From Ignavibacteriota bacterium (lineage in GTDB: Bacteria; Bacteroidota; Ignavibacteria; UBA10030), in assembly GCA_003155495.1 (NCBI GenBank), contig PMDB01000014.1, positions 1 through 32,498 on the forward strand: a stretch of 32,498 bases of DNA, written 5' to 3'. Below, in pieces: positions 18,477-30,909 of this stretch; position 1 is the first letter of the stretch, and every line of letters begins with the position of its first letter. The translations under genes and the position numbers were made by a program. The notes beneath the pieces were generated by a model. The model was not told the origin of the DNA. It saw only the letters and a program-made list of their open reading frames with translations, and did not search any database.

Positions 18477-19202
18477 GTGACCAGAGAAGAGAAACGTGAT
18501 CGACGCATTTACCGACAAGCGTATGTGCGTTCGCTCTTTGATGCTATTGCGTACCGGTACGATTTTCTGAATCATACACTCAGTTCGGGCATAGATATAC
18601 TTTGGCGACGGCGAGCCGTTCGGATGCTCCAAGAATTACACCCAAGACGAATACTCGATGTCGCTACCGGCACAGCAGATCTGGCAATCGAAACGGCTTG
18701 GCTCAATCCGGAGCGAGTCATCGGTATAGATATTTCAACGAAGATGCTTGAAATTGCCCAAGCTAAAATTATTAAGAAGAACCTTGAAGATATTATTGCA
18801 CTTGAATCCGGCGAAGCAGAACTTCTTCGATTTGAAACTGGATCGTTCGATGTAGTTATGACAGCATTTGGAGTGCGAAATTTTGAGAATCTTGAACTCG
18901 GGCTACGTGAATTCTACCGCGTGCTTCGCAGCGGCGGAACAACAATGATACTCGAATTTTCAAAGCCGAATCGGTCGCCGGTGAAACAGTTCTATCAGTT
19001 CTATTCTCGATATATCCTTCCCTTGCTGGGAGGTCTTATTTCAAGGAATCGTTCGGCGTATGAGTATCTTCCGAGCACGATCACTGAGTTTCCGGACGGC
19101 GAAGAATTTTGCAAATGCCTGATAAGTGCCGGGTTCTCAAGTGCCACATGGTATCCGCAAACCTTCGGCATAGCATCCATCTATATGGCAGTGAAAGTGT
19201 AG
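18477..19202 (+). CDS. menG: Demethylmenaquinone methyltransferase (UbiE/MenG family)
   Basis: The enzyme methylates the naphthoquinone ring of demethylmenaquinone with S-adenosylmethionine, the last step of menaquinone synthesis. The 241-aa product has the family opening VRSLFDAIAYRYDFLNHTLS (after a short basic tail), the SAM-binding motif ILDVATGTADLA near 59-70, IGIDIS, and FGVRNFENLELGLREFYRVL, diagnostic of UbiE/MenG. The start is a GTG; there is no ATG upstream before the in-frame stop at 18447. The next gene, mqnD, starts 11 nt after its stop, which fits the menaquinone rather than ubiquinone assignment. Confidence 0.92.
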   Translation: MTREEKRDRRIYRQAYVRSLFDAIAYRYDFLNHTLSSGIDILWRRRAVRMLQELHPRRILDVATGTADLAIETAWLNPERVIGIDISTKMLEIAQAKIIKKNLEDIIALESGEAELLRFETGSFDVVMTAFGVRNFENLELGLREFYRVLRSGGTTMILEFSKPNRSPVKQFYQFYSRYILPLLGGLISRNRSAYEYLPSTITEFPDGEEFCKCLISAGFSSATWYPQTFGIASIYMAVKV

Positions 19203-19213
19203 ACAAGCAAAGT

Positions 19214-20050
19214 ATGAGCGACAAAATTATCAGAATTGGCCATAGCCCTGATCCGGATGATGCATTTATGTTTTATGGCCTCTCCTCCGGGAAAGTGAAA
19301 CTCGACGGCATCATTATTGATCATATACTTGAGGATATTCAATCCTTGAATATGCGTGCTTTAAAGGGCGAACTGGAAGTGACCGCCATCTCTGCTCATG
19401 CGTATCCTTCTACCGCTGATAAATATTGGATTATGGCAACAGGCGCCAGTATGGGCGAAGGATACGGGCCAGTTCTCATTTCAAAAATTTATAATTCGTT
19501 GGAAGAACTCAAAGGCAAAAAGATTGCAACACCGGGAAGACTCACAACAGCATCGCTCATTTTCAAAATCTTCACGGATGGATTGGAGAATGTAGATATC
19601 CCTTTTGATCAGACTATGGAGCGTGTCGAGTCGCGCGAGTTTGCGGCCGGTGTATTAATTCACGAGGGACAAATTACATACGCCGATCAAGGCTTTAATA
19701 AGATCATCGACTTCGGTGAGTTGTGGAAATCGCGATTTGCTGATTTGTCGCTGCCTTTGGGGCTCGATGTTGTACGGAAAGACCTTGGTAAAGTATTGGC
19801 TCGCACACTTTCCGTTGGCTTGAAACAAAGTATTCATTACGGGTACACGCATCAATCGGAAGCAATCCCGTACGCATTGCAATATGGGCGCGGAATCGAC
19901 ATTGCGATTGGCGAACGCTTTGTGAAAATGTATGTCAACGAATTAACGATAGATATGGGAGAACGCGGTAAGAAAGCTCTTGAAACACTCTTTCACCTCG
20001 GTGCAGAACGAAAATTGATAGCCCCTGTGGGTACTATCGAATTGTTTTAG
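19214..20050 (+). CDS. mqnD: MqnD-type 1,4-dihydroxy-6-naphthoate synthase
   Basis: MqnD converts cyclic dehypoxanthinylfutalosine to 1,4-dihydroxy-6-naphthoate in the futalosine route to menaquinone. I take the ATG at 19214 (278 aa), which begins MSDKIIRIGHSPDPDDAFMF as the family does. An in-frame ATG at 19109 would overlap ubiE by 94 bp. The SPDPDDAFMFYGL motif, the GEGYGPVL strand and a GVLIHEGQITY strand with His150 (at the place of the proposed catalytic His of MqnD) are visible. The fold is periplasmic-binding-protein like but there is no signal peptide, as expected for the cytoplasmic enzyme. The SPDPDD variant (classic MqnD has SPCPND) marks a subfamily that could include MqnA-like or other members, so the exact step is likely rather than proven. 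Confidence 0.82.
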   Translation: MSDKIIRIGHSPDPDDAFMFYGLSSGKVKLDGIIIDHILEDIQSLNMRALKGELEVTAISAHAYPSTADKYWIMATGASMGEGYGPVLISKIYNSLEELKGKKIATPGRLTTASLIFKIFTDGLENVDIPFDQTMERVESREFAAGVLIHEGQITYADQGFNKIIDFGELWKSRFADLSLPLGLDVVRKDLGKVLARTLSVGLKQSIHYGYTHQSEAIPYALQYGRGIDIAIGERFVKMYVNELTIDMGERGKKALETLFHLGAERKLIAPVGTIELF

Positions 20051-20052
20051 CA

Positions 20053-20976
20053 ATGATTGGGCTCTTCAAAATATTTGACGCACACGCTCACTTCTACTCC
20101 AACTCCTTCTTTAAGTTTTTAATAAAGCAGAAGCCGAACCGAGCAGATATCAATGCTGAACTTCGGAATTTAGCAGCCAAGGGGCATATTGAAATCCCCG
20201 GCGAAGATCCGGAACAGCTTGCCAAACGGTGGATCGATATCATGGACAAATGGAAGTTGGAAAGGTTGATGCTCTTCGGTAGTATTCCCGGTGATGAAGA
20301 ATCCGTCGTCAAAGCAGTCCAGGCATTTCCTACTCGTTTTACCGGAATGTTTGCAGTCGATCCTAACTCAAATGTGTTGATGGAAAATGCCACCAAGCGA
20401 ATGAAAGAAGACAAGCTCAAGGGCGTCTTGCTCTATCCTTCGTTGTACAACATTAGTGTCAACGACGAATGGCTTTATCCGCTCTACAATCTCATCCAGG
20501 AATGCAAAGGTATCATCTTTGTTCACTTCGGCAAACTCATTATGCGTCCGCGCGACTATGCAGGCATTCCTCCGATGACGAACGATGAATTCTCAAATCC
20601 CAAAGATCTTATTCCGGTTGCAAAAATGTTTTCAGGTATTAAGTTCATTATTCCAAATTTCGGCGCAGGAAAGTTGGCTGAGACAATATTGACCGGTCAA
20701 GAATGTAAAAACGTTTACGTTGACACTGCCGGTTCAAACTCATGGATCGCCGAACATACGGATAAACTGGATATGCGCCGTGTGTTTCAGAAATTCTTAG
20801 ATATCTTTACGGCAAACAGGATATTGTTCGGATCGGATTCTGGATTGCTGCCGCGGGGATACCGGTATGATATCATTGATAACCAATTAAAGTTGGTACA
20901 GGAAATGCGCTTACCGATAGCTGACATTAAAAAGATTTTCTACGAAAACATGGCAGGATTGGTAGATAACGGATAG
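20053..20976 (+). CDS. Amidohydrolase_2 (ACMSD-like) family protein
   Basis: The 307-aa TIM-barrel protein begins 2 nt after the mqnD stop, so it is the third gene of the menG-mqnD operon. Metal-ligand positions of the ACMSD/amidohydrolase_2 family are present: His11 and His13 (DAHAHFY), His158 (FVHFGK) and Asp262 (FGSDSG). The strand-6 histidine, normally in a P-H-x-G context, is replaced by PNFGAG with Asn202. This family includes non-oxidative decarboxylases of aromatic acids as well as hydrolases. The operon position suggests a part in quinone metabolism, and removal of the naphthoate carboxyl group is an attractive but untested role, because the known MqnL/MqnM (UbiD/UbiX-like) enzymes are not in the window. 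It could also be catalytically altered or a plain hydrolase. Confidence 0.75.
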   Translation: MIGLFKIFDAHAHFYSNSFFKFLIKQKPNRADINAELRNLAAKGHIEIPGEDPEQLAKRWIDIMDKWKLERLMLFGSIPGDEESVVKAVQAFPTRFTGMFAVDPNSNVLMENATKRMKEDKLKGVLLYPSLYNISVNDEWLYPLYNLIQECKGIIFVHFGKLIMRPRDYAGIPPMTNDEFSNPKDLIPVAKMFSGIKFIIPNFGAGKLAETILTGQECKNVYVDTAGSNSWIAEHTDKLDMRRVFQKFLDIFTANRILFGSDSGLLPRGYRYDIIDNQLKLVQEMRLPIADIKKIFYENMAGLVDNG

Positions 20977-25446: not shown

Positions 25447-26527
25447 TTATGCTGAAGCAGATTTTTCTTCCACTTTGAGAATTTCGTACAGGGTTGTACG
25501 TTGCGCTGGAATAAATCCAGACTCCCATATCAGGTTCCTGCACTCTTCAGCACTAGTTGTATTAATGAAATTAGCAGCTGCATGAACATTCTCTTCAAGC
25601 AATGTGCCGCCAAAATCATCAGCACCAAAGTGTAAAGCAATCTGGCCGATCTTCTTCCCCTCTGAGAACCACGACGCCTGGATATGCTGAAAATTGTCTA
25701 AATAAACGCGTGAGAATGCGATCATCTGCAGATACCGCGTAAAGAGGTAGCATAATGCGGAATAATCTTCTCTAATGGCGTGTTACCGGGCTTAAATGAC
25801 CACGGAATGAAGGCAGTGAACCCACCGGTCTCATCCTGCAGCTGTCGGATAACCTCGAGATGCTCAACGATATCCTCATCTGTCTCAAGATGTCCGTACA
25901 TCATTGTTGCCGTTGTTTTAAATCCGATATTCTGTGCAATGCGCATAACATTCAGCCAATCGGCGGAAGTGCCTTTTTTACTGCTGATCTTCTTCTTGAC
26001 GCGGTCCGAGAGAATTTCGGCACCACCGCCGGGAATAGACCGCAATCCTTTTTCCCACAATTTCTCCAGTACTCTACGAATCGATAAGCCGGAGACTTGC
26101 GACATCGCAATAATTTCCGATGTGGAAAAGAAATGCGGATAGATCTCCGGGACTTCCTTCACTGTGCGTTCAACAAGTTCCAGATAATATTCAAATGGAA
26201 TTGTCGGGTCAACTCCGCCCTGGAGAAGCACTGTCGTGATTCCGTGCGACACCGCTTCCTTAAATTTCTGAATCAATAGATCGCTCGACAGCCGGTACGC
26301 ACCTACTTCGCCTGGATGCCGGTAGAATGCGCAGAAGATACAATCGATGTTGCAGACATTTGAATAATTCGGATTGGTATCGAGTAAATAAGATACCCAT
26401 TGATTCGGATTTCATTCGCTATGTCACCGAGATCCAATAACTCCGCATTCCTCACAAGGAACAATCCTTCTTCCCGCGAGATACGAACGCCTTCCCGAAC
26501 CTTCTGATAAATTTCTTCCAGCGTCAT
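25447..26527 (-). pseudogene. mqnC: mqnC, cyclic dehypoxanthinylfutalosine synthase, interrupted by two frameshifts
   Basis: MqnC is a radical-SAM enzyme of the futalosine menaquinone route. Three frames on the minus strand join into one normal-length protein of about 360 aa. The first part ends LGDIANEIRING, and the second begins VSYLLDTNPNYSNVC and holds the Cys-x3-Cys-x2-Cys cluster motif (CNIDCIFC). The third begins FTRYLQMIAFSRVYLDNF and ends IPAQRTTLYEILK. The first break is at GGG (26398-26396), where GGGG would restore the frame. The second is at TTT (25743-25741), where TTTT would. Both are one-base losses in homopolymers and every other residue is well kept, so sequencing or assembly error is as likely as real decay. 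The ATG has AGGA upstream. Confidence 0.88.
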
Positions 26528-26537
26528 AGAACACGTC

Positions 26538-27386
26538 CTATAAATGTATTTGACATCCTGCGGCTTTGAGTTCTTTCAACAATCCCAAGCTTGCTTCTTC
26601 CAACTTGATAACAATCGGTTTCGCAAGCACACCCGGCACGTTTTTGGGAAAATTAACATCCGACATATGGAGAACACAGACTCGATTCTTTCCCAGTTTC
26701 CCGACGAAATGACCAATCTCGAACATTGCATATGTGAGGTCATCCGAATTGACAACAAAAAATGCAAATTTCACCCCGGCATCTATTTGAAGTGTTTCGA
26801 GGGACAGCATCTGTCCGTGCTGACGTTCAAGATTGATTTCTTCTAATCCGACTTCTCTGAGAAATTGCAGTAATTGAGCATACAAGGGATCATCCGCTTC
26901 TCCTATCACATACACTTTGCTGGGCTGTGCAGCTGCTTGCGGCTGTTGAGGAGGATGGGCCGGTGTTGTTGCAGGAGCCGATTGAACTGCTACCGGTTTT
27001 GGCGGTGGTTTCAATACCCGAACTCCTCCGGTGTCTATTGTCGTCTGAACTGTCGGTGTCGGAAGATCCATGACCGGAGCAGCCGGAGCCGATGCAAGCT
27101 CGGGAGAAGCTTTAACTTTTTCGTACAGTTCACGCATACAATTGAAAATCAATTGGGCGGACGGTTGAAAAAAGAATCCTCCGTTTTTATCGCCAAGAAT
27201 TTTTTGTTTGTACGGGAATCCAATCGGTCCGGAAGACTCGATCGCTTCCAAACATGCTTTACGCCAATCCAGATATTTATTCTGTAATCGTGCATTATAC
27301 CCGGACGCCTCGAATCCTCCTTGAGGTGCTAATTGAGTTCCGCTGGTTATTAGCTCTTCACATTTTTTTAGTAATTGTTCCGGCAT
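26538..27386 (-). CDS. TIR-like nucleotide-binding-domain protein
   Basis: The 282-aa cytoplasmic protein has an N-terminal helical region (1-95), a Pro/Ala/Gln-rich linker (101-156) and a C-terminal domain (157-265). That domain reads KVYVIGEADD, FLREVGLEEINLERQ, GQMLSLE, FAFFVVNSDD, then FEIGHFVGKLGK and NVPGVLAKPIVI. The last blocks match the TIR-like predicted nucleotide-binding family (Pfam PF10137 by memory), whose motif is E-L-G-x-F-x-G-K-L-G-R. In some antiphage systems such domains cleave NAD, and others have no known function. The stretch between the DD and the E-x-G helix is shorter than usual and lacks the arginine-rich part, so activity is uncertain. The gene ends 10 nt before mqnC and starts 29 nt after the mqnA remnant, with AGGA before its ATG. 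Confidence 0.72.
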   Translation of the reverse strand: MPEQLLKKCEELITSGTQLAPQGGFEASGYNARLQNKYLDWRKACLEAIESSGPIGFPYKQKILGDKNGGFFFQPSAQLIFNCMRELYEKVKASPELASAPAAPVMDLPTPTVQTTIDTGGVRVLKPPPKPVAVQSAPATTPAHPPQQPQAAAQPSKVYVIGEADDPLYAQLLQFLREVGLEEINLERQHGQMLSLETLQIDAGVKFAFFVVNSDDLTYAMFEIGHFVGKLGKNRVCVLHMSDVNFPKNVPGVLAKPIVIKLEEASLGLLKELKAAGCQIHL

Positions 27387-27415: not shown

Positions 27416-27712
27416 TTATAGTGGAAGTCTAGGATGATGGTACACATGCTCTAATTTTTCAATTTCCAAAAGCAGTTCTTGAAATTCTTCTATCGCCGCT
27501 CGTTCCCTGACGCCCATGCGGAAGTTGAAACCGGCGAGATAGTCCACCGATTCTTCGTTCGTAAGATTAATCCGCTTTGCAGGCAATTGTCCTACCGATG
27601 CATAATCTCCTTCAGCGCGTGCAAGTGACTGCTGGATAATTCCACATAATTCATCTCTCTGTTCTATGGGCATGGATTTCTGTACCGCCCAGATTGCAAA
27701 TACAAACGGCAA
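27416..27712 (-). pseudogene. mqnA: mqnA remnant, C-terminal third of chorismate dehydratase
   Basis: The frame opens with NLPFVFAIWAVQK, the conserved strand of MqnA (L-P-F-V-[FY]-A-x-W), and continues through about 95 residues of typical MqnA C-terminal helices to a stop at 27416. MqnA makes 3-enolpyruvylbenzoate from chorismate at the first step of the futalosine pathway. Complete proteins have about 270 residues, so roughly the first 170 are missing. Upstream in this frame there is a stop within about 50 bases, and the sequence there belongs to an mqnC copy instead. No ATG starts the fragment (only TTG at 27712), so it is unlikely to make a working enzyme. Confidence 0.75.
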
Positions 27713-27713
27713 G

Positions 27714-27824
27714 TTCGTATAAGGTTGTACGCTTCGCTGGAATAAACCCCGACTCCTTTATTAGGTCATTGCATTCTTCTGTATTCGTCGTATTCACAAA
27801 GTTTGTAGCCGCACAATAACTTTC
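27714..27824 (-). pseudogene. mqnC-like tail fragment joined to the mqnA remnant
   Basis: About 108 bp align without gaps to the end of mqnC (25483-25590), with roughly 70 % base identity counted by hand. The encoded residues AATNFVNTT, EEC, LIKESGFIPAKRTTLYE mirror AAANFINTT, EEC, LIWESGFIPAQRTTLYE of mqnC. It is therefore the tail of a diverged mqnC copy, cut off upstream near 27824 and downstream at the mqnA junction near 27712. No upstream part of this copy is present in the window. Confidence 0.75.
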
Positions 27825-27873
27825 AGATCTATACTGCATCTATACGCGTCATACCTTTGAGTTGTTTGATCTA

Positions 27874-28767
27874 TTATCCGATAAAAAGTCCCACAGCGAG
27901 TAAAATCGGTGTTGTCAAATTGATAACTACGTTTAAGCCCATTGAGGGAATCAGGGAAGGGATATTTTCAGCGTTTTGGTATGCACCCCGATAGGCTTTC
28001 CAAGCAGGGATAACTGTTAAGAGAGCAAGCAGGCTATAGCGAGGCAATAAAACAAAAATCACACCGATCACTACCGAAACATACGCAAGCAGCAAGAAGA
28101 CGCCATATAGTACAGCGCTAGCTTGCCGCCCCATAGTAATCGGAAAATGTTTTCGTCCGATGCTTTTATCAGCATCCACATCAGGAAATTGATTGAGCAA
28201 CAGCAAGTCGCTCACAAGAAACATAGGAACAAGAGATGCAACGAAAGATATCCAGCTGTATGAACCTGTCAAACAGAAGTGTGTCCCCATAACCATGAGA
28301 ATACCGAAACCCAATCCCGGTGCTATTAAACAAAGGATCGGATTATATGCCCACCAAATAGTATATGTTACCAATAAGATCAGTCCGATGATGCCAAGCG
28401 GCAACAAGAGGTAGCCTCGCAGCCATATGAAATAAAATCCCACTACCGCAGTAATAATAAAAGTGATTATGGCAAGATAAAGAATGTTTTTCTTCATTTC
28501 CGGATGTGCCTGCAGAGTGCCACTGCCGCCGCTGAAGGGTGTGCGTTGAGTTTTAGTGTCAAGTCCGCTTTTGAAATCAAAATATTCGTTAAATGCGTTT
28601 GCGCTAATATGACTTGCGAGTGCGCCAAGAATAATTATGAAGACCTGGATCCAGCTTATTGCATGTGTTTGCCAGAAGGCCGTTCCCGCACCCACAGCAA
28701 CACACGCAGGTGCCAGGATCAAAAACGGTACCCGCATAGGGCCAAGCAGTGATTTCATTTTGCTCAT
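27874..28767 (-). CDS. UbiA-family prenyltransferase (MenA/MqnP type)
   Basis: The 297-aa membrane protein has about eight or nine helices and both aspartate-rich UbiA motifs. The first is N57-x2-N60-E-Y-x-D64-x3-G-x-D70. The second is NQFPDVDADKSIGRKHFP around residue 190. These bind the prenyl diphosphate through magnesium. The form of both motifs is that of MenA, which prenylates dihydroxynaphthoate. In a futalosine-pathway organism the equivalent enzyme, MqnP, uses the 6-carboxylate isomer. GAGGAG lies 7 nt before the ATG. The gene lies upstream of the damaged mqn locus and after metG (72 bp), and appears intact. Confidence 0.85.
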   Translation of the reverse strand: MSKMKSLLGPMRVPFLILAPACVAVGAGTAFWQTHAISWIQVFIIILGALASHISANAFNEYFDFKSGLDTKTQRTPFSGGSGTLQAHPEMKKNILYLAIITFIITAVVGFYFIWLRGYLLLPLGIIGLILLVTYTIWWAYNPILCLIAPGLGFGILMVMGTHFCLTGSYSWISFVASLVPMFLVSDLLLLNQFPDVDADKSIGRKHFPITMGRQASAVLYGVFLLLAYVSVVIGVIFVLLPRYSLLALLTVIPAWKAYRGAYQNAENIPSLIPSMGLNVVINLTTPILLAVGLFIG

Positions 28768-28839: not shown

Positions 28840-30909
28840 TTACTTCACAGTCGCTCCTGTAGATATTTCCGATTGCACACCAACGAGTGTTAATGTACCG
28901 GATTCATTGCTAGCAGCAAGAATCATGCCTTGCGACTCTTGCCCCATGAGCTTCGCAGGTTGGAGGTTCGCGACAACAACGATCAACTTTCCGATTAAAT
29001 CCTCCGGTTTGTAATGCTGTGCGATGCCTGCAACCACTTGACGCCTTTCGTTTCCAATTTCAACTTGCAGCTTTAAAAGCTTTTCAGACTTGGGTACTTT
29101 TTCTGCTTCGATAACTCGTCCGATGCGAAGATCAATCTTTTTAAAATCATCAATCGTGATCGTAGGTTTCAGCGGAGAAATCGGAACGGCTTCAGGAGTG
29201 TCCCCACCTTCGAGGAATCTCACAATCTCGTCGATCTGCTTATCCTCAATTTTGGCTATGAGAATTTCCGGTTTGTTAAGCTGGTGTCCTTCTTTGATTC
29301 GGAATTCAGCTGCAGAATCCCATCCATCGACTCTCAACGGAATATTGAGATTGAGGAGTTTCCATATTTTTTCAGAAGTTGCAGGTACCACAGGTTCCAA
29401 CAAAATTGCAAGAGATCGCACTATTTGGATAGCAACATGAAGAGTCGTTGAGCAGCGTTCCGGACTCGATTTCAGTGTCTTCCATGGCTCGCTGTCATTA
29501 AAATACTTGTTCGCGGCGCGGGAGAGATTCATCACTTCCATCAACCCTTCGCGAAAGCTGTAATGTTCAAACAACTCACCAATCTTAGACGGTGCTTGTT
29601 TTACTGCTGCAAGAACTTCTTCGTCAAGCTTATTAAGCGTACCGAGCTTCGGTACGGTACCTCCGAAATTCTTATCTATGAACGCAATCGTGCGATTAAC
29701 AAAGTTCCCGGTAATGTCTGCCAATTCATTATTGATGCGTGCTTGAAAATCTTTCAAATAAAAATCACTGTCGCGGGTTTCAGGCAGATTGACAGCGAGA
29801 GCATACCGCAGCATATCCGCCGAAAAGAATTTCAGAAATTCTTGAACATCAATTCCCCATCCGCGGCTCTTGGAAAACTTCTGACCTTCAAAATTAAGAA
29901 ATTCGTTTGCGGGTACATTTTCCGGCAGCACATACTGATTGGTATTGCCGTCATTCCAAGCCATCAGCATTGACGGAAAAACGATGCAATGAAACACAAC
30001 ATTGTCCTTGCCGATAAATGCAACGTACTTTGTGTCTTCATCCTGCCAATATTCCTTCCACGCTTCCGGTTTTCCGTGAGTTGCCGCCCATTCTTTGGCA
30101 GATGAAATATACCCGAGCACCGCATCGAACCAGACATAAATCACTTTATCTTCATATCCGGCAACCGGCACGTGTACACCCCAGTTCAGATCGCGTGTCA
30201 CCGCACGATCCTTCAATCCATCTTTGAACCATCCTTCGCAATACCGAAGAACATTGTCTTTCCAGCCATCTCTTTTGTCTCGTTCAGCGATGTACGATTC
30301 CAATCGTGGCTGATAATTCCCGAGCGGAAAGTACCAATGTGTTGTTTCCCTCACAACCGGGGTCGTTCCGCACAACTTGCACTTTGGATCAATGAGTTCA
30401 GTCTGATCCAGCCACGTACCGCAATTCTCGCATTGATCACCACGCGCCTGCGTTGATTTACATTTTGGGCAAGTACCTTCAACATAACGGTCGGCAAGAA
30501 ACATGGCATCTTTTAAACAATACAACTGTTGTTCCTTCTTATCGATCACAATACTGCGTTTGTGGAATTCCCTAAAAAAATCTTTTGCTGTTTCGTGATG
30601 CAATGGAAGCGATGTACGCGAGTAATTATCAAAACTCATTTCGAACGCTTCGAATGCCGCCTTATTGGCTGGATGGTAGCGGTCGATAATGCTCTTTGGC
30701 GTCGTCTTTTCTTTTTCCGCTGAAACGGTAATGGCGACACCGTGCTCATCGGAGCCGCAGAGGAAGAGAACATCACGCTTCTTCATGCGTTGATAACGGG
30801 CATAGATATCTGCTGGCAAATAGGCGCCTGCAAGATGACCAAGGTGCAGATATCCGTTTGCATACGGCAATGCTGCTGTTATAAGGATTCGTTTGAAAGG
30901 AGACTTCAT
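28840..30909 (-). CDS. metG: Methionyl-tRNA synthetase
   Basis: MetG charges tRNA-Met. The 689-aa product has the class-I HIGH element as HLGH at residues 22-25 and KFSKS as the KMSKS loop. The connective domain is zinc-binding with three visible Cys pairs (CPKC, CENC and CKLC). A helical anticodon-binding region follows. The C-terminal EMAP-II/Trbp111-like tRNA-binding domain (IDDFKKIDLRIGRVIEAEKV, LQPAKLMGQESQGMI) is kept, as in many bacterial dimeric enzymes. Length is usual for this form. Its ATG overlaps the holB stop in an ATGA (30906-30909), so the two are translationally coupled. Confidence 0.97.
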   Translation of the reverse strand: MKSPFKRILITAALPYANGYLHLGHLAGAYLPADIYARYQRMKKRDVLFLCGSDEHGVAITVSAEKEKTTPKSIIDRYHPANKAAFEAFEMSFDNYSRTSLPLHHETAKDFFREFHKRSIVIDKKEQQLYCLKDAMFLADRYVEGTCPKCKSTQARGDQCENCGTWLDQTELIDPKCKLCGTTPVVRETTHWYFPLGNYQPRLESYIAERDKRDGWKDNVLRYCEGWFKDGLKDRAVTRDLNWGVHVPVAGYEDKVIYVWFDAVLGYISSAKEWAATHGKPEAWKEYWQDEDTKYVAFIGKDNVVFHCIVFPSMLMAWNDGNTNQYVLPENVPANEFLNFEGQKFSKSRGWGIDVQEFLKFFSADMLRYALAVNLPETRDSDFYLKDFQARINNELADITGNFVNRTIAFIDKNFGGTVPKLGTLNKLDEEVLAAVKQAPSKIGELFEHYSFREGLMEVMNLSRAANKYFNDSEPWKTLKSSPERCSTTLHVAIQIVRSLAILLEPVVPATSEKIWKLLNLNIPLRVDGWDSAAEFRIKEGHQLNKPEILIAKIEDKQIDEIVRFLEGGDTPEAVPISPLKPTITIDDFKKIDLRIGRVIEAEKVPKSEKLLKLQVEIGNERRQVVAGIAQHYKPEDLIGKLIVVVANLQPAKLMGQESQGMILAASNESGTLTLVGVQSEISTGATVK

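Follow-up and report, generated by a model that had tools for sequence, protein, structure and literature searches.

What is a gene for a TIR-like protein doing between the menaquinone genes of an Ignavibacteriota bacterium? The gene, here called TIRX, lies at 26538–27386 on the reverse strand of contig PMDB01000014.1 (assembly GCA_003155495.1); "the window" denotes the whole 32,498-nt stretch that was analyzed. An initial annotation, made from the sequence alone, proposed an inserted defense gene, a quinone/NAD-linked sensor, or an inactive member of a TIR family, and took the damage in the adjacent genes to be compatible with an insertion. Comparison with 61 relatives, mostly metagenome assemblies, identifies TIRX as an Ignavibacteria gene for a degenerate TIR, passed on by vertical descent. 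It looks like a defense-type protein turned to a housekeeping job that is probably non-enzymatic. No papers were found on TIR-like domains in quinone operons or on Ignavibacteria futalosine genes.

Gene and protein architecture

TIRX begins with an ATG preceded by AGGAAG a few bases upstream, and 10 bases lie between its stop codon and the first mqnC fragment, whose ATG is at 26527. The ribosome-binding site and the spacing agree with the initial annotation. The 282-aa product has a four-helix N-terminal domain, a linker, and a degenerate TIR-type domain. An AlphaFold model was built with 37 family sequences. Helices at residues 2–19, 32–51, 53–64, and 74–93 were predicted with confidence in the N-domain (residues 1–93; 27108–27386, reverse strand), the most conserved part of the protein. 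A Pro/Ala-rich linker, annotated earlier as proline-rich, covers about residues 100–153 (26928–27089, reverse strand) and joins the two folded parts; pLDDT is below 50 over most of it, as expected of a disordered segment. The C-domain (26541–26927, reverse strand) is modeled confidently as a five-stranded alpha/beta fold, and the strings NSDD and FEIGHFVGKLGK stand where they had first been placed.

The C-domain matches Pfam PF10137 (CAP12-PCTIR_TIR) with 35.2 bits against a gathering cut-off of 24.7, and PADLOC family PDC-S35 with E 9e-18 over profile positions 109–258 of 264, the TIR part only. PF10137 (E 0.01 or better) and PDC-S35 are each matched by 37/37 TIRX members, and PycTIR by 34/37. 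Weak matches to the nucleoside deoxyribosyltransferase-like family PF15891 occur in three members. The domain has a flavodoxin-like fold with F-E-x-G in helix C. In the fold search TIR-STING shares the top rank (Z 11.8 over 118 residues), with SfSTING at 10.9 and SPARTA TIR at 10.7. Response-regulator receivers score nearly as high. Flavodoxin-like folds generally score near TIR folds, and a fold match alone is weak support for a TIR; the assignment rests mainly on sequence because receiver domains fall in the same Z range. Its profile matches trace the C-domain back to the TIR domains of the PF10137/PDC-S35 group. The TIR-like domain of the initial annotation is borne out by PF10137, PDC-S35, and the comparison with TIR structures that had been proposed as a check. 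Among PHROGs, one without an assigned function matches the TIR half, and no relative was found in viral contigs; a viral origin was considered and rejected.

NAD pocket

An alignment set 40 TIRX family members beside 12 PF10137 proteins of canonical type, all from one phylum. Missing from 40/40 members are HGH(D/N) in the loop after the first strand, the loop EQ..G.T (EQPN-G-T), the CC loop over its full 16 columns, RARQN included, and the PSD loop with its aspartate. Nearly all of these motifs are kept in the 12 canonical proteins. The loop before the E-x-G helix, described as short in the initial annotation, is 16 alignment columns shorter than in canonical relatives.

In SfSTING, the NAD pocket is formed by S10, R78, N80, and the catalytic E84, and the active site is completed by D110 from the partner subunit of the dimer (PMC9402430). 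Mapped onto TIRX by HMMER sequence alignment rather than by a superposed model, E84 corresponds to E223 (codon 26718–26720, reverse strand), N80 to Y219, and D110 to N249. E223 is kept in 38/40 members; the exceptions are L049 and L050 (genomes G049 and G097), where TIRX still lies between MqnEA and MqnC. The family has a C-terminal motif of its own, VVKLEE(A/I)SFSLxKELKAAGY. Except for the helix-C glutamate, this alignment shows that TIRX has lost the sequence elements that build an NAD pocket, which supports the inactive-member option. The close relative G002, which carries degenerate TIRX at its mqn locus, also encodes a second PF10137 TIR protein elsewhere (L051 638–1513, reverse strand); this one is canonical, and every NAD-pocket motif is present in it.

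N-terminal domain

The N-domain is under the strongest constraint. Its consensus is GGFExSGYNARLQxxYLxWRK, and 17 of 101 columns are invariant, including G23, G24, S28, G29, N31, A32, Q35, W41, R42, and K43. Between the window and the sister genome G001, dN/dS is 0.12 for TIRX and 0.05 for the N-domain alone. A fold search with the N-domain alone returned common helical bundles and no significant match; the best score (Z 8.6) was to a designed protein. This lack of a match is no proof of a new fold. Homology to the N-domains of canonical PDC-S35 proteins was considered and rejected (hhalign E 0.09–0.18, not significant). In a profile search of 395 genomes of the phylum, the combination of N-domain and TIR was found only in the window genome's GTDB-type family (f1) and in another family of the same order (f5). 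Other matches were sporadic and to the TIR half alone.

Distribution and origin

TIRX orthologues are present in 30/31 f1 genomes (the completeness of the one exception is 55%) and in most of the f5 genomes that carry mqn genes. Wherever the locus is intact, its order is (UbiA-UbiX-UbiD)-MqnE/MqnA fusion-TIRX-MqnC. The search of relatives for the order mqnA-TIR-mqnC, proposed earlier as a check, recovered it in both families. An inserted defense gene is not supported, as relatives with intact mqn genes have TIRX at the same place. In families f2, f3, f4, and f6 the same operon lacks TIRX, and MqnEA and MqnC are adjacent or split by unrelated genes. TIRX is therefore not needed for menaquinone synthesis. 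The initial annotation had set against its own reading a fixed operon member with a metabolic role. The fixed position was found, but it does not establish a metabolic role: sister families have MqnEA and MqnC without TIRX, and TIRX outlives MqnEA, MqnC, and MqnD. In f5, TIRX is absent where mqnC is absent (G040, G053, and G068). Disrupted copies occur in two family genomes, by a deletion and frame change in G020 and an in-frame TAG in G028. What looked like loss or breakage was traced to the end of a contig in G062 and to a run of Ns within the linker in G027.

The MqnEA/MqnC junction of f3, f4, and f6 holds ParE, RelB/Phd-like antitoxin, or PIN genes (L053, L055, L057, and L098), and is an insertion hot spot for small modules inside a biosynthetic operon. 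Repeated entry of such modules fits a very old capture of a defense-type gene that was later domesticated. A single origin in an f1 and f5 clade was rejected, since the two families do not join in the MqnC tree. Either ancient presence with losses in other families or a transfer that reached the same slot is then required.

Decay of mqn genes around TIRX

In the window, mqnC is a pseudogene spread over three frames (25447–26527, reverse strand), a point absent from the initial annotation. The mqnA remnant that had been noted is real; it derives from an MqnE-MqnA fusion of which a tail is left (27416–27839, reverse strand). It comprises the MqnA C-terminal tail (27416–27712; PF02621 match 2e-10) and, fused in front of it, a diverged copy of an MqnC-like C-terminal tail. 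That copy (27711–27824) and positions 25471–25580 share 75% DNA identity over 103 bases. An intact mqnD lies at 19109–20050 on the forward strand, with a true start probably near 19211. It is followed by a PF04909 amidohydrolase gene (20053–20976, forward strand); a PF04909-like gene is also kept beside TIRX in mqn-lost genomes (L107 and L110).

The sister genome G001 has an mqnC truncated differently from that of the window, and no mqnC was found in G004, G015, G017, G019, and G027. MqnD is absent in G001, G004, G015, G017, and G019, the search having covered these without G027. On the TIRX protein tree, with the TIR tree used as a stand-in for the species tree, mqn loss requires six changes, at least three of them forced by well-supported branches. 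TIRX is intact after mqn loss in G000, G001, G004, G015, G017, and G019, and in G027 it is complete apart from the assembly gap in the linker. It survives the loss of MqnEA, MqnC, and MqnD around it, and terminal TIRX branches of mqn-lost genomes are not longer than those of mqn-keeping ones. The upstream neighbor of TIRX in the window is metG (28840–30909, reverse strand), and TIRX lies directly downstream of metG after mqn loss in G015, G017, G019, and G027. The mqn damage is decay separate from TIRX and repeated in several lineages. Damage caused by insertion finds no support, as relatives with TIRX have undamaged neighbors.

In the comparison of the window with L031, dS is 0.67 for TIRX (1.28 for the TIR part) and 0.59 for the mqnC remnant; the values for metG and the MenA-like gene are much lower (about 0.21). 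The contrast hints that the flanks have recombined or been replaced. In the comparison with L034, protein identity is 96% for the MenA-like gene and 85% for metG.

Quinone genes after mqn loss

A MenA-like UbiA prenyltransferase is encoded at 27874–28767 (reverse strand). Among 61 genomes, homologues of it (E <1e-17) were found only where intact MqnEA/MqnC is lacking; the mqn-lost f1 genomes with the enzyme are the window genome, G001, G004, G015, G017, G019, and G027. An intact menG/ubiE methyltransferase gene lies at 18477–19202 (forward strand), and G015 and G017, like the window, have kept MenG. No MenB or MenD scored above cut-off in mqn-lost f1 genomes, and a host switch to the classical Men pathway was rejected on that ground. 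MenA-like and MenG proteins without MenB and MenD suggest scavenging of external DHNA. No MqnB or MTAN scored above cut-off in the 61 relatives, including genomes with MqnE, MqnA, and MqnC. In G001 two PF01048 proteins were classified, both as purine nucleoside phosphorylases. In these searches the step that makes dehypoxanthinyl futalosine in this order has no recognizable MqnB or MTAN enzyme.

Comparison with known systems

PDC-S35, a PADLOC candidate single-gene defense family, has a homologous C-terminal TIR domain and a similar overall size. In contrast to PDC-S35, TIRX has an N-domain without detectable homology (hhalign E about 0.1) and no canonical pocket motifs, and it is fixed and vertically inherited where PDC-S35 is sporadic. 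CBASS Cap12/TIR-STING and Pycsar PycTIR share family PF10137, the fold, and the F-E-x-G of helix C with TIRX, which differs from them in having no STING or cyclic-nucleotide sensor domain, no HGHD, no CC loop RARQN, and no D110-equivalent loop. NCBIfam Cap12 models score 14.6 bits against a cut-off of 450. The STING domain and neighboring CD-NTase gene of CBASS Cap12 are absent; the neighbors are mqn genes and metG. Of the features of NAD-hydrolyzing PF10137 effectors, TIRX has the helix-C glutamate and lacks the HGH(D), RARQN/CC loop, and PSD motifs. The operon slot of TIRX corresponds to the futalosine-pathway step expected between MqnE/MqnA and MqnC, that of MqnB/MTAN (PF01048). TIRX belongs to an unrelated sequence family, with no match in Pfam or NCBIfam to PF01048, TIGR03664, or TIGR01704, and is not required for the pathway in sister families.

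Interpretation

The best explanation, to which we give a probability of roughly 55%, is a domesticated pseudo-TIR that acts through its conserved N-domain and TIR-type self-assembly and not as a standard NADase. Because the MqnEA/MqnC junction repeatedly takes small modules, a defense-type gene probably entered there long ago and was then domesticated. TIRX would no longer cut NAD as a defense effector. Its pseudo-TIR domain may self-associate through the retained helix C, where interface-type residues are kept, and the N-domain, which has an invariant loop and a Y-x-x-W-R-K helix, may bind a partner or ligand. The whole protein would then act as an assembly or regulatory module. Against the pseudo-TIR reading, conservation of E223 in 38/40 members is more than a purely structural role needs, though interface residues flank it, and the copies in G020 and G028 are disrupted.

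An ancient PDC-S35-type anti-phage gene, fixed in these families and with a TIR activity modified to another substrate or exerted only on assembly, is a doubtful alternative. The matches of all members to PDC-S35 and of 34/37 to PycTIR, the kept glutamate, the toxin-antitoxin genes at the same junction in sister families, and the persistence of TIRX when mqn genes go are all in its favor. However, defense genes are patchy in distribution, whereas TIRX holds a fixed position in 30/31 f1 genomes and has a low dN/dS; the NAD-pocket motifs are gone, and PDC-S35 is itself only a candidate family whose profiles align to the TIR part alone. Recent insertion of an active NADase defense gene that broke the operon is hardly credible. 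It would account for a TIR-type domain beside damaged neighbors, but it is already contradicted by the conserved gene order, which places TIRX at the same position beside undamaged neighbors in relatives and rules it out as the cause of the mqn damage; the neighbors also decay independently in several lineages, and the NAD pocket is lost.

A role in quinone metabolism, in which TIRX would scaffold or regulate the enzymes UbiA-UbiX-UbiD-MqnEA-MqnC or steps further along the quinone pathway, is rather unlikely. The operon position is conserved in two families, f5 genomes without mqnC (G040, G053, and G068) also lack TIRX, and f1 genomes that lost the front end keep the MenA-like enzyme, with MenG near TIRX where looked at; yet f2, f3, f4, and f6 possess MqnEA and MqnC but no TIRX, and in f1 TIRX outlasts MqnEA, MqnC, and MqnD. 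A TIR-fold N-glycosidase supplying the (amino)futalosine nucleosidase activity that is missing between MqnE/MqnA and MqnC is improbable. In its favor, gene order matches reaction order, MqnB/MTAN is missing above cut-off from all 61 genomes, both PF01048 proteins classified from G001 are purine nucleoside phosphorylases, E223 is kept, the residues lost from the pocket serve the NAD phosphodiester, and three members match PF15891 weakly. It is disfavored because families with MqnEA and MqnC but without TIRX share the MqnB/MTAN gap and TIRX is kept after pathway loss; the glutamate is also gone from G049 and G097, where MqnEA and MqnC remain. A wider version, in which the TIR fold was turned to a biosynthetic N-glycosidase that also serves other 5'-deoxyadenosyl nucleosides, is just as improbable; if true, it would explain survival of TIRX after mqn loss.

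The domesticated pseudo-TIR reading bears on how such genes are labeled, as annotation tools will call TIRX a defense gene. PF10137 TIR domains have been studied mainly as sporadic NAD-cutting defense effectors. The TIRX family is the opposite: fixed and constrained, with the NAD pocket dismantled, placed at a metabolic locus, and retained after loss of the pathway. The family lends itself naturally to the question of what use a TIR fold has without NADase activity.
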